In this document: one piece after another, positions 4,023 to 32,946 of the stretch
Numbering within the stretch: the stretch's first letter is position 1
How the letters are laid out: the number at the start of each line of letters is the position of its first letter
Assembly (NCBI GenBank): GCA_025058175.1
Contig: JANXED010000003.1
Coordinates: forward strand, 1 to 64,000
From: Candidatus Calditenuaceae archaeon
GTDB lineage: Archaea > Thermoproteota > Nitrososphaeria_A > Caldarchaeales > Calditenuaceae
Length of the DNA: 64,000 nt
Reading direction: 5' to 3'
Translations under genes and position numbers: made by a program
The notes under the pieces: model-generated
Told to the model about the DNA's origin: nothing
The model's database searches: none
The model's input: only the letters and a program-made list of their open reading frames with translations

Positions 4023-5528
4023 TCACACGGGTCGTCCGGCTCCCCGGAAGAGCTGTATGACAACGTAGTTCACGAGGAGCTCCGTGACACTCGGCGGCAG
4101 GTTGTTGAAGAGCTGATATATAGTCGACATCTCCTTGGGGAGGCCCTCCTTCAGGCCAAGGGCCTTGAGGAGCGCGGGGCCGTAGACCTCTAGGCTCCTT
4201 TCAAGCTCCCTCATCAGAGCCCCCAATGAGGCCAGGTCGAACTCCTGGGGCGTGATCAGCCGCATGATCAGACCTAGTCCCTCGATCAGTCCCTCTGCTT
4301 CGCTGGGCGGGAGCCTCCTCACGAGATCGGTGCACTCCTCCAGGTCCCTCACCATCTCATCGCAGGTTCTCCTGTTGAGCGGAGTGATCGTGAGGTGGAC
4401 GCTTGGGGGTATCCCCATCTCAGGGACGCCCCTCTGAGGCAAGAGGTACCAGCCCCTCTTCGTCATCTCGTCGGAGAGCCTGAAGAGGTTGAGGTCTTCC
4501 GAGGTGAAGGCGAGTATGACCGTCGGCCTCCCCATAACCCTGTAACCCAGCTTCTCCACGCCGCGGGAGATCAGGTCTCTCGCCTCGATTATCGACCTGG
4601 TGAGCCGCAGGTAACCCTCTTCGCCCAAGTAGTGGAGGACTGCCCACGTGGAGGCCAGGTGTCCCGCGGACCTCGACGAGAGCACGGCGGGGTTCACGAT
4701 CGGGTAACCCGGCCACCTCAGGCAGGCGAACTGGGAATACATCTTGTAGTACTCCTTCCTGAAGAGGACCACCGATGCTCCTATGGGCGCGTATGCGTAC
4801 TTATGCGGGTCCAGCGATATCGAGGTGACCCCCTCGACGCTGAAGTCGAAGTCCGGGACGTCCTCGCCCAGCTTCCTCATGAACGGGAGCGCGAAGCCGC
4901 CGACACAAGCGTCGACGTGGAACCAGATGCGACCGTCCTGCGCGACCTCGGCCATCTCCTTAACTGGGTCGACAGTCCCAAAGAGCCAGTTCGGAGCAGA
5001 AGCTGCGACCATCGCGGTGTTCTCCGTGATCGCCTCCTTCACGGCCTCGACATCAGCCTGAAGCGTCTCCGGGTCCACCTTCACTCGTTTGACCTTTAGG
5101 CCCATGTACTCGGCGGCCTTGTCGAAGCACGGGTGCGCGGTGACGGGGATCACTAACTCGGGGATCGTGATCGTTCCTCTCCCGAGGATGAACCAGTCGC
5201 GCGCGGCCTTCACCGCGAGGAAGACGCTCTCGGTACCGCCGAAGGTGTAGGTCCCCGCGACCTGCTCGTCGCCGTTCATCAACCTTGTCGCGATCCCGAC
5301 CACATCTCTCTCCATCCTGATCACGCTGGGGAACTCCGTGAAGTCGAGCATGTTCTTGTCCATGAAGGCCCTGAAGGCCTCGAGGGCGATTTCCTTCAGG
5401 TCGTCGAGGCCGGACTCGAAGGCGATCGTGAAGAGCCTCCCGCTCGACGGCTCCGCGTCCTCTGAGGCGTATTCCCTCAGCCTCGCGAAGATTTGCTCCT
5501 TGGAAAGTGAAGGCCACTGGGAGTTCAC
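4023..5528 (-). CDS. PLP-dependent lyase/decarboxylase, sphingosine-1-phosphate lyase-like
   Basis: Fold-type I PLP enzyme of the group II decarboxylase superfamily (501 aa). Visible: FGGTES at 96-101 (phosphate contact), HVDAC at 204-208 with the cofactor-binding aspartate, and SLDPHKYAYAPIG, whose lysine 243 should form the Schiff base. The DPHKY-APxGxSVVLF pattern is closer to sphingosine-1-phosphate lyase than to glutamate or tyrosine decarboxylases. The C-terminal ~100 residues are an extra helical tail. The GTG start lies 27 nt after an AATTATA box (5552-5558, minus strand). Archaea lack ordinary sphingolipids, so the substrate is open; a phosphorylated amino-alcohol or an amino acid is possible. 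Confidence 0.8.
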   Translation of the reverse strand: MNSQWPSLSKEQIFARLREYASEDAEPSSGRLFTIAFESGLDDLKEIALEAFRAFMDKNMLDFTEFPSVIRMERDVVGIATRLMNGDEQVAGTYTFGGTESVFLAVKAARDWFILGRGTITIPELVIPVTAHPCFDKAAEYMGLKVKRVKVDPETLQADVEAVKEAITENTAMVAASAPNWLFGTVDPVKEMAEVAQDGRIWFHVDACVGGFALPFMRKLGEDVPDFDFSVEGVTSISLDPHKYAYAPIGASVVLFRKEYYKMYSQFACLRWPGYPIVNPAVLSSRSAGHLASTWAVLHYLGEEGYLRLTRSIIEARDLISRGVEKLGYRVMGRPTVILAFTSEDLNLFRLSDEMTKRGWYLLPQRGVPEMGIPPSVHLTITPLNRRTCDEMVRDLEECTDLVRRLPPSEAEGLIEGLGLIMRLITPQEFDLASLGALMRELERSLEVYGPALLKALGLKEGLPKEMSTIYQLFNNLPPSVTELLVNYVVIQLFRGAGRPV

Positions 5529-30523: not shown

Positions 30524-31087
30524 ATGGACGCGGAGGCAAGGCCTCCCTTCAGGGGCGATTACGTCGAGGGAAGCGTAGTGGTCTTCGACAGGGCCCAGGC
30601 GAGGGCGGTCTACTCCCTCGGGTACTTCGGGAAGCCGCTCGGCGTCCCCAAGCCCAAGGGCACGGACTTCGACGAGCCGCTCGTGCTAGACCTGATCGAG
30701 GCCAGGTATCTGGTCGAGGAGGGGTACCTTGAGGTCTACAAGGACGGGAGGAGGATGACCGCCGAGGAGGTCGCGGAGGTCGGGAGGGCGAACTACACGA
30801 AGTACGACGACCTCTACTCGGTCTACAGGGACCTGAGGAAGAGGGGTTACTACGTCAGCACGGGCATCAAGTTCGGGAGCGACTTCGCGGTCTACGTGTA
30901 CGGACCAGGCATAGACCACGCGCCCTTCATCGTACTGGTCAGGTCGGAGGACGAACAGCTCTGGGCGACGGACATCGTCAGGGCCGGGAGGCTCTCTACC
31001 ACGGTGAAGAAGAACTTCTTGATCGCGACCGTTGACAAGGAACGGGGACGCGTGAGGTACCTCTCGATCTCCTGGGCCAGGATGTGA
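30524..31087 (+). CDS. endA: tRNA-splicing endonuclease
   Basis: Archaeal EndA (187 aa), which cuts bulge-helix-bulge introns in pre-tRNA and pre-rRNA. The catalytic triad is visible in the C-terminal nuclease domain: Y124 (FGSDFAVY), H132 (DHAPFIV) and K163 (TVKKNFLIA), with the expected 31-residue gap between His and Lys. The N-terminal domain is the usual small alpha/beta unit. 187 aa is the single-domain length, so it should act as a homotetramer or as part of an alpha2beta2 enzyme. Neither tRNA in the window has an intron. Confidence 0.93.
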   Translation: MDAEARPPFRGDYVEGSVVVFDRAQARAVYSLGYFGKPLGVPKPKGTDFDEPLVLDLIEARYLVEEGYLEVYKDGRRMTAEEVAEVGRANYTKYDDLYSVYRDLRKRGYYVSTGIKFGSDFAVYVYGPGIDHAPFIVLVRSEDEQLWATDIVRAGRLSTTVKKNFLIATVDKERGRVRYLSISWARM

Positions 31088-31089
31088 GT

Positions 31090-31623
31090 CTAGCCGCTCT
31101 TTCTGCCGATCACCATCTCGAGGAGCGTGCCGAGTACGAGCCAGGCAGCGTTCTTGTCGATCGCGATGCATGGCAGCACCGGAATTGTGGGCGGCACGCT
31201 GAGCACGAACCTCACGTCCTCGGGCTTCAGGGCCTGGGGCAGGTCCTGCTTGTTAGCCGCGACGACAATCGGCAGCTTCCCGAACTGGGCACGGGCCCTC
31301 TTGAACTCCTCGACCGAGGCTGAAATGGACTCGGAGTCGCTCGAGTCGACCATGAAGATAACGCCGTGGGCTCCGACCGAGAGCACCCTCCACATGAAGG
31401 AGAACCTTGGCTGTCCGGGGCTTCCGAACAGCCTCACCACGTACCCGTCCCCTATGTTGACCATCCCGAAGTCCATCCCCACAGTCGTCTTCTCCTTCTT
31501 CCTCCTCTCCTCGGGGGAAGTTACCTCAACGTCCGTCGTCATGCTCAGTCCGGCCAAGGTCTTGATGAATGTGGTCTTCCCTGCGTTGAAGGGTCCCACG
31601 ATGAGGACCTTGATGCTCCTCAT
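31090..31623 (-). CDS. Arf/MglA-like small GTPase
   Basis: 177-residue GTP-binding protein of the Ras-like superfamily. P-loop GPFNAGKTT at 10-18, a switch I TTVGMDFG segment at 46-53, switch II GSPGQPRF with the glutamine position at 71, and NKQD at 124-127 for guanine specificity. The GMDFG/GSPGQ pattern places it with archaeal Arf/SRbeta/Gtr-like proteins. No lipidation site or membrane segment. Third gene of a minus-strand operon behind two roadblock-domain proteins (gap 4 bp), the classical regulators of such GTPases. ATG start. Confidence 0.9.
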   Translation of the reverse strand: MRSIKVLIVGPFNAGKTTFIKTLAGLSMTTDVEVTSPEERRKKEKTTVGMDFGMVNIGDGYVVRLFGSPGQPRFSFMWRVLSVGAHGVIFMVDSSDSESISASVEEFKRARAQFGKLPIVVAANKQDLPQALKPEDVRFVLSVPPTIPVLPCIAIDKNAAWLVLGTLLEMVIGRKSG

Positions 31624-31627
31624 GACC

Positions 31628-31993
31628 TCATTCCTTGAAGTAAACCGAGAGCAGCATGTTGATGAAGCCGAGGTTCGGGTTGGACTTCGTTATCGCGACG
31701 ACTACGTCGCCCCTATAGGGCATCGCGAAGACGTACCTCCGGTCCGTCAGCTCGACGTAGATCCTCTTGTAGTCCCCGAGCTCGAGCATCTCCAGCACCG
31801 ACCTGATCACTCCCGAGACAGCCGAGATCGCGGCGGCGAGGTAGTCGGGGCTTAGCGAGATCGAGTTGGCGTGGGCGACCGGCGTGCCATCAGGCTTAGC
31901 TACCAAGAGTACTTCTATCGCTCCCCTGCTGACCCTAAGGACCTCCTCCAGGTAGACCTTGAGGGAGTCTGGGTCGTAGTGGAACCCGCACAA
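31628..31993 (-). CDS. Roadblock/LC7 domain protein
   Basis: 121-residue single-domain protein of the roadblock/longin-like fold: helix 1 SLKVYLEEVLRVSRGAIEVLLVAKPDG, then PVAHANSISLSPDYLAAAISAVSGVIRSVLEMLELGDYKRIYVEL and a final beta strand with helix. Roadblock proteins dimerise on small GTPases as activating or scaffolding partners (MglB in bacteria, Ragulator in eukaryotes). It lies 4 bp upstream of the GTPase gene and 3 bp downstream of a membrane-anchored roadblock protein, so the three are almost surely co-expressed. Confidence 0.88.
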   Translation of the reverse strand: MCGFHYDPDSLKVYLEEVLRVSRGAIEVLLVAKPDGTPVAHANSISLSPDYLAAAISAVSGVIRSVLEMLELGDYKRIYVELTDRRYVFAMPYRGDVVVAITKSNPNLGFINMLLSVYFKE

Positions 31994-31996
31994 CGC

Positions 31997-32644
31997 TCAC
32001 CTGACCTCCAGCATCCGCGCGAGCACGACCCTGATCTGCTCCGTTATCCTCCGCAGTTCTTCCGCACCGACCGGGCGGCCCGTCCTGAAGTGGGCGTAGA
32101 CCTCCCTCTCGTCGACGGTCGCGACCTTCACCACCCCCTCAACGCCTCCGTCGAAGACCGCGAAGGACTTGGCGCGGTCGTTGGCCATCATTATGACCGA
32201 GAACGCCTCCGCGAGCAGAGCAGCGAGCCTCTCCGGGTCATCTTCGCCCTCGTGGTCGATCACGTGACCGGCTGAGTCGAAGAGGAGGACCGACTTGAGG
32301 TTGAAGGTCCTGAGGAGGTCCTTCAGGTCCGAGATCTCCCCGACCACTATAACCTCAGGCTGCGGAGGTTGCTCTGGTGGAGGCGGTGGGGGCGGGACGG
32401 GGGCGGTCTGGACCGTTTGCTGCGGCGTCTCGGGCTCCGCGGGAACTTCGGACTGCGGCCGCGCGGTCGCCTTCTCCTCCTCCGGTTGGACGGGTTTGAT
32501 CGTGATCTGGAGCGCCTCCCTCATGAGCTTCAACTCCGTGGTGATCCTCCTCAGGCCCGAGATCACCGTGAGCAGAACGACTATCACGGCTACCGCGATT
32601 ACGGCCGACCAGACCAGTCCCATCATCTCAGCGACTTCCTGCAA
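31997..32644 (-). CDS. Membrane-anchored roadblock-type protein with proline-rich linker
   Basis: 215 aa. Residues 9-30 form one transmembrane helix, followed by a charged helix (33-48), then a low-complexity linker rich in Pro, Glu and Gln with a run of seven prolines near 84-90, and from ~99 a C-terminal domain (EISDLKDLLRTFNLKSVLLFDSAGHVIDHE) with roadblock-like layout. TTG start; a CGTATAAGAA box (32691-32700, minus strand) lies upstream. First gene of the GTPase operon. The likely role is tethering the GTPase-roadblock module to the membrane; roadblock assignment is by pattern. Confidence 0.72.
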   Translation of the reverse strand: MQEVAEMMGLVWSAVIAVAVIVVLLTVISGLRRITTELKLMREALQITIKPVQPEEEKATARPQSEVPAEPETPQQTVQTAPVPPPPPPPEQPPQPEVIVVGEISDLKDLLRTFNLKSVLLFDSAGHVIDHEGEDDPERLAALLAEAFSVIMMANDRAKSFAVFDGGVEGVVKVATVDEREVYAHFRTGRPVGAEELRRITEQIRVVLARMLEVR

Positions 32645-32682
32645 CGCTCGGACTCCACCGAGACTCCCCGTAATTCCCCCTC

Positions 32683-32700
32683 AAAAAACGTTCTTATACG
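32683..32700 (-). promoter_or_regulatory. T-run terminator and TATA box between B-box gene and GTPase operon
   Basis: Read on the minus strand, CGTATAAGAA (32691-32700) resembles a TATA box for the roadblock operon, and a six-T run (32683-32688) may end transcription of the upstream B-box gene, an archaeal T-tract terminator. Both are compositional calls. Confidence 0.4.
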
Positions 32701-32733: not shown

Positions 32734-32946
32734 TCAGACCCCGGCCATACTCCGGATTGACGCGGAACCCCGGACCCCCGTGGAGATCAGGACGACCGCC
32801 CTCTCCGGGAGGACGCGCCTCATGTAACAGACCTTGCAGACGGTCCTCGATCCGGTGAAGACCGCGCATCTATTGCAGACCATCCGGGAGCAGATGGCGC
32901 ACTTCCTGACCGCGAAGTTGTCCGGGTGGTAGTAGCACCTGTACAT
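32734..32946 (-). CDS. B-box-type zinc-finger protein
   Basis: 70-residue protein from the ATG at 32946; longer upstream frame has no similarity and is rejected. Residues 1-41 hold a B-box-like pattern: CYYHPDNFAVRKCAICSRMVC followed by CAVF and CKVC, giving C4, H7, C16, C19, C24, C27, C37 and C40 for two zinc ions. The C-terminal 28 residues have no recognisable fold. In archaea B-box domains often precede a membrane protein; here it stands alone, upstream of the GTPase operon. Role unknown, probably protein-protein contact. Confidence 0.75.
   Translation of the reverse strand: MYRCYYHPDNFAVRKCAICSRMVCNRCAVFTGSRTVCKVCYMRRVLPERAVVLISTGVRGSASIRSMAGV

Follow-up and report, generated by a model that had tools for sequence, protein, structure and literature searches.

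A membrane-tethered roadblock protein, a soluble roadblock protein and an MglA-like GTPase form a conserved archaeal cassette linked to type IV pilus genes in relatives

Three tightly spaced genes of a hot-spring Calditenuaceae archaeon raise the question of what a roadblock protein with its own membrane helix does beside a soluble roadblock protein and a small GTPase. The family belongs to the Caldarchaeales, formerly Aigarchaeota, and the genes lie within the analysed stretch of 64,000 nucleotides, referred to here as the window (Table 1). Among named organisms, Candidatus Calditenuaceae MAGs and Candidatus Calditenuis fumarioli are closest to it. The three open reading frames are as a first-pass annotation had described them, with gaps of 3 bp (31994-31996) between the genes of the membrane-tethered protein (TM-Robl) and the soluble protein (Robl), and 4 bp (31624-31627) between those of Robl and the GTPase.

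Table 1. Window coordinates of the operon genes, their putative control elements and the flanking genes
Feature	Position	Strand	Description
Small Cys-rich (zinc-finger-like) ORF	32734..32946	-	upstream of the operon, same strand
Probable promoter	32676..32698	-	TATA-like TATAAG followed by a T run; 23 nt
TM-Robl	31997..32644	-	215 aa, TTG start; single-pass membrane protein with C-terminal roadblock domain
Soluble Robl (MglB-like)	31628..31993	-	121 aa, TTG start; roadblock protein
End of the soluble Robl gene / GAATGAGGTC	31624..31636	-	TGA stop inside the purine-rich GAATGAGGTC, immediately 5' of the GTPase ATG
MglA-like small GTPase	31090..31623	-	177 aa
tRNA-splicing endonuclease EndA	30524..31087	+	convergent with the operon, on its downstream side

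The order of the genes and the protein identity (about 61, 87-91 and 73-75 %, in gene order) are kept in the two closest genomes of the same genus (G002 and G003), which indicates that all three are real genes, and the position of the TTG start of TM-Robl is common to both genomes. The 23-nt TATA-like element 5' of the TM-Robl gene, TATAAGAACGTTTTTTGAGGGGG, does not differ by a single base between the window and these two genomes, and the operon therefore probably has its own promoter. The position of the purine-rich segment before the GTPase gene suggests translational coupling from Robl to the GTPase. The neighbours of the operon are EndA, a PhoU-like protein, the Cys-rich ORF and an ORF that reads as glucose/sorbosone-dehydrogenase-like. 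EndA is a conserved neighbour in the window's family and probably stands outside the system. The Cys-rich ORF is kept at the same upstream place in nine Calditenuaceae loci.

TM-Robl consists of a transmembrane helix at about residues 10-30, a basic stretch (GLRRITTELKLMRE), a proline-rich linker at about residues 49-105 that is modelled by AlphaFold2 with low confidence or as disordered, and a roadblock domain at about residues 107-212; the model joins the N-terminal residues 2-47 in one long helix. The C-terminal domain, on whose fold the first-pass annotation made its interpretation depend, is predicted at residues 107-211 with the roadblock order of elements (alpha-beta-beta-alpha-beta-beta-beta-alpha) and a pLDDT above 90 over most of its length, and its best PDB matches in Foldseek are MglB (6hjm, 1j3w and 3t1s), Ragulator and Asgard roadblock proteins. 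The annotated layout of a single membrane pass, a proline-rich linker and a roadblock-like head thus agrees with the model. In 16 of 16 relatives of TM-Robl, no lysine or arginine precedes the membrane helix and two to four directly follow it, a charge pattern from which, by the positive-inside rule, the topology should be N-out/C-in with a cytoplasmic roadblock domain.

The soluble protein, likewise annotated as roadblock, is modelled with a roadblock fold at a mean pLDDT of 88.9, and its best structural match in Foldseek is an Asgard roadblock homodimer, followed by LAMTOR and MglB. Both window proteins score below the curated Pfam cut-off for Robl_LC7 (18.1 and 18.6 bits against 23; E 0.0023 and 0.0015), whereas the roadblock proteins of several relatives exceed it. 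Since the sequence scores fall short, the assignment rests on the predicted fold and on the relatives, which outweigh the Pfam score and identify both as roadblock proteins. Asp35 and Gly36 of soluble Robl are invariant in 31 aligned sequences, and this Asp-Gly pair is a feature of MglB proteins coupled to MglA of Groups 2-5. TM-Robl retains only the glycine of the pair, and soluble Robl rather than TM-Robl is therefore expected to act on the GTPase. The two roadblock proteins are distant from each other (when the TM-Robl domain is aligned by hhalign with the family of the soluble protein, the probability is 12.6 %), which argues against a recent duplication. An apparent paralogue at G000:C81:1822-2130 lies inside a multi-TM protein, where hydrophobic and linker segments match by chance.

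The GTPase carries the motifs GPFNAGKTT (G1, residues 10-18), TT (G2, 46-47), GSPGQ (G3, 67-71) and NKQD (G4, 124-127). It had been annotated as an Arf/MglA-like GTPase with all G motifs; the MglA-like part of this description holds, and the completeness of the motifs does not, since G3 is without its usual aspartate and no classical SAK motif is present at G5. The missing aspartate is a trait of MglA and not of Arf, and the Arf label is therefore dropped. The columns invariant among the relatives are GP....GKTT, the TT of G2, G.PGQ of G3 without aspartate and NK.D. Within the window's genus G3 reads GSPGQ; most relatives have GTPGQ and some GVPGQ. T46 and T47 are invariant in 22 sequences, and MglA of Thermus thermophilus has R-T at this place. 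Against solved structures, the profile of the GTPase finds T. thermophilus MglA best (3.5e-17), with Arf-like proteins slightly lower. MglA of Groups 2-5 is defined by GTPGQ, a threonine that replaces the intrinsic arginine finger, and a coupled roadblock protein with the Asp-Gly pair (Wuichet and Sogaard-Andersen, PMC4316618). The GTPase shares with these groups the G1 and G4 patterns GxxxxGK[ST] and NKxD, the G3 without aspartate (the serine form being a slight variant of GTPGQ) and the threonine in place of the arginine finger beside the G2 threonine; an mglB homologue is required there within four genes, and the roadblock gene is adjacent in the window and its relatives. Judged by its motifs, it is an MglA-like GTPase and not an Arf. 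In the GTPase tree, whose references do not include Group 4, the reference MglA sequences sit on very long branches.

The three-gene order, likewise decisive for the first-pass reading, recurs in the archaea surveyed. Each of the 12 genomes from the window's family has all three genes, and 11 keep the order TM-Robl, Robl, GTPase; in G001 the GTPase gene is found about 16 kb from the TM-Robl/Robl pair. The sister family (Geocrenenecus, Wolframiiraptor and Benthortus) has the same gene order, and a third family of the phylum (G382) carries two copies of the cassette. In the Thermofilales, the gene before Robl and the GTPase encodes a transmembrane protein with a coiled-coil-like linker, the C-terminal part of which aligns with TM-Robl (hhalign 94.6 %, E 7e-8), and which represents a diverged anchor. 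The same kinds of genes stand in a different order in G253. Most genomes combine the GTPase with the pair in tight operons, also apart from pili. That the partnership is retained through the rearranged orders speaks for a working module. The proposal of a complete switch is thus upheld as far as a conserved cassette is concerned, but the roadblock pair occurs in some genomes without the GTPase. In the Archaeoglobaceae, a related GTPase forms the C-terminal half of a longer protein (L122:876-2039 and L139:345-1472), with a KaiC-like N-terminal half in the former; a roadblock gene directly follows.

The gene context in relatives points to surface machinery. In the sister family, a gene for a T2SSF platform protein of ~590 aa comes immediately after the pair or triple, a divergent gene for a T2SSE assembly ATPase adjoins the cassette, and pilin-like genes are present in the same loci. 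The arrangement is ATPase / TM-Robl-Robl-GTPase-platform in the Geocrenenecus type and TM-Robl2-Robl2-GTPase / ATPase / TM-Robl1-Robl1-platform in Wolframiiraptor, where a single GTPase thus accompanies two pairs; G013, G016 and G020 have ATPase / TM-Robl-Robl-platform, with no GTPase. TM-Robl is present in 18 of the 18 sister-family genomes with the ~590-aa platform and absent in all 4 without it (Fisher 1.4e-4, kinship ignored). For the whole order the corresponding counts are 28 of 34 with the platform against 2 of 10, and both exceptions are genomes that are incomplete (Fisher 5.5e-4, kinship again ignored). The platform also occurs in two families of the order that lack the cassette, which indicates that the pilus does not need the cassette. 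Of the two cassettes of G382, one comes after a T2SSF platform gene and five ORFs for N-terminally hydrophobic, pilin-like proteins on the same strand, and the other is followed by a gene whose product matches Pilin_N weakly.

Some further observations concern these loci. The T2SSE ATPase of three sister-family genomes is about 1,090 aa long instead of 600 (L082:1245-4499, L100:6534-9809 and L110:2132-5416), and that of L110 contains an inserted segment ending ...VLLHN|T, intein-like in look. Extra roadblock-family proteins with an additional N-terminal region (up to 257-281 aa) are encoded near the pilus ATPase and the cassette in the sister family (L100:1289-2131 and 4232-5008; L086:1688-2224 and 4248-5018), often with a small roadblock gene adjacent. 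A histone-deacetylase-like gene follows one of the two cassettes of G382 (L163:8053-9075).

The linkage extends to bacteria. Among actinobacterial relatives of the GTPase, mostly from Coriobacteriia, a pilus ATPase gene is found in 29 of 31 loci, the other two being contigs shorter than 4 kb; among zetaproteobacterial relatives it is found in 0 of 10 loci. The coriobacterial locus L090 encodes PilB, a roadblock protein, an unannotated stretch, the GTPase, a one-TM protein, PilB, PilT and PilC, and in L116 a DUF4388 protein lies in the stretch between the roadblock protein and the GTPase. The L090-type operon appears to be a good bacterial model of the same switch. It spans L090:1331-11652 and contains roadblock and MglA-type GTPase genes of its own besides those of the type IV pilus.

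No pilus gene adjoins the operon in the window or elsewhere in the Calditenuaceae, and no such platform or ATPase is near the operon in the Thermofilales and Vulcanisaeta loci that were read. The ~590-aa platform was not found in the window genome, which is 57 % complete and carries a different T2SSE/T2SSF pair on contig C59; genomes of the window's family have pilus platform genes elsewhere, and archaellum and pilin genes have been reported for C. fumarioli (PMC10547907). Both the sister family and G382 show the linkage, which recurs in Coriobacteriia, and it is therefore likely to be the ancestral state; in the window's family the operon would then have moved away from the pilus genes. We infer that the pilus function persists there, with the operon away from the pilus locus.

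The cassette is thus probably a membrane-tethered switch of the MglA/MglB type that controls a type IV pilus machine. The GTPase would be the switch and soluble Robl its cognate MglB-like regulator, putatively a GAP and/or GEF, and TM-Robl, probably paired with soluble Robl, would thereby keep the complex on the membrane's cytoplasmic side. The target is likely an archaeal adhesion or twitching pilus. In Myxococcus xanthus, MglA-GTP controls type IV pili: with SgmX it directs PilB, the extension ATPase, to the pole and stimulates pili, and MglB switches MglA off (PMC7519303). By analogy with MglA, SgmX and PilB, the tethered GTP-bound GTPase may localise, recruit or activate the pilus assembly ATPase at the platform, and where or when the cell builds surface fibres would probably be under the control of the cassette. 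Among the functions first suggested, polarity, trafficking or motility, the evidence favours such surface machinery and speaks against trafficking of the Ragulator/Rag kind.

Each of the known systems resembles the cassette in part. The Group 1 systems of M. xanthus and T. thermophilus likewise combine a small GTPase with an adjacent roadblock regulator, whereas their MglA has TVPGQ and an intrinsic arginine finger in place of the G[ST]PGQ and threonine found here, and the M. xanthus system as described has no membrane-anchored roadblock protein. The closest likeness is to MglA Groups 2-5, especially the archaeal Group 4, in GTPGQ, the G2 threonine and the coupled roadblock protein with Asp-Gly. 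Group 4 as described, however, came almost exclusively from methanogens, included a single korarchaeal member and lacked conserved neighbours (PMC4316618), whereas the present cassette has a conserved third gene, occurs in TACK archaea, the Caldarchaeales among them, and is linked to pili in relatives. The Streptomyces conservon (CvnA-D) also unites a membrane protein, a roadblock protein and an MglA-type GTPase in an operon, but its membrane protein is a histidine kinase and CvnC is added, whereas here the anchor is itself a roadblock protein; neither CvnA nor CvnC is found among the operon genes and their neighbours, and a conservon identity was rejected. Roadblock proteins of archaeal type IV pilus loci (arCOG02603) are mentioned in one sentence of a paper that describes no GTPase partner, membrane-tethered form or mechanism for them (PMC4858521).

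The evidence was also weighed for other roles. TM-Robl and Robl might mainly serve the pilus motor as a cytoplasmic structural scaffold, comparable to ArlX, the scaffold of the archaellum motor, with the GTPase as an optional addition. The pair that stays beside the platform without a GTPase in G013, G016 and G020, the two pairs to one GTPase in Wolframiiraptor, the coiled-coil-like linker of the Thermofilales versions and a weak ArlX match of the G253 transmembrane protein (E 0.0048) are consistent with such a role, which is nevertheless unlikely given the tight coupling of the GTPase and the pair in most genomes, also away from pili, and the Asp-Gly pair of soluble Robl that is typical of GTPase-coupled MglB. 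Also judged quite unlikely is a switch for polarity or membrane signalling in general that, in the window's family, acts on something other than pili, for example envelope growth, the division site or nutrient signalling. The operon does lie apart from pilus genes in all of that family and in the loci of Thermofilales and Vulcanisaeta that were read, but the repeated pilus linkage, in two archaeal families as well as in Coriobacteriia, speaks against this reading.

A precursor of Ragulator-Rag or Arf-like membrane trafficking is suggested by the structural likeness of the roadblock proteins to LAMTOR proteins and by Arf as the best Pfam match of the GTPase, and Ragulator-Rag does resemble the cassette as a membrane-anchored roadblock scaffold for small GTPases. 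It differs in its anchor, its GTPase class and its role in lysosomal nutrient signalling. The GTPase reads FGSPGQ instead of the DxxGQ of Arf at G3, and it starts directly at beta-1 (MRSIKVLIVGP) without the N-terminal amphipathic helix of Arf; its 177 aa comprise the G domain alone, without the C-terminal roadblock domain of Rag. The anchor is a transmembrane roadblock protein and not a lipidated LAMTOR1, no LAMTOR1-like anchor is present, and the best match of TM-Robl is MglB. This origin is highly improbable and appears largely refuted already by the GTPase motifs.

The component parts of the proposed pilus switch are of known kinds, and its link to type IV pili is new here; the open-access literature that was searched gave no description of a membrane-tethered roadblock protein, of such a three-gene cassette or of a linkage between it and pili. 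In TM-Robl, a prokaryotic roadblock protein serves as the membrane anchor itself, a task performed by other proteins in Ragulator and possibly by the kinase in the conservon. Little is known of how archaea assemble type IV pili at the right place and time, and the cassette in pilus loci is a directly testable candidate that ties archaeal pili to the bacterial MglA polarity systems. More tentatively, a membrane-bound roadblock heterodimer may be a core part of the archaeal type IV pilus machine, with the MglA-type GTPase as a plug-in switch. If so, the coriobacterial relatives with the same pilus linkage would imply that GTPase control of pili predates the split of archaea and bacteria or was passed between them as a module.
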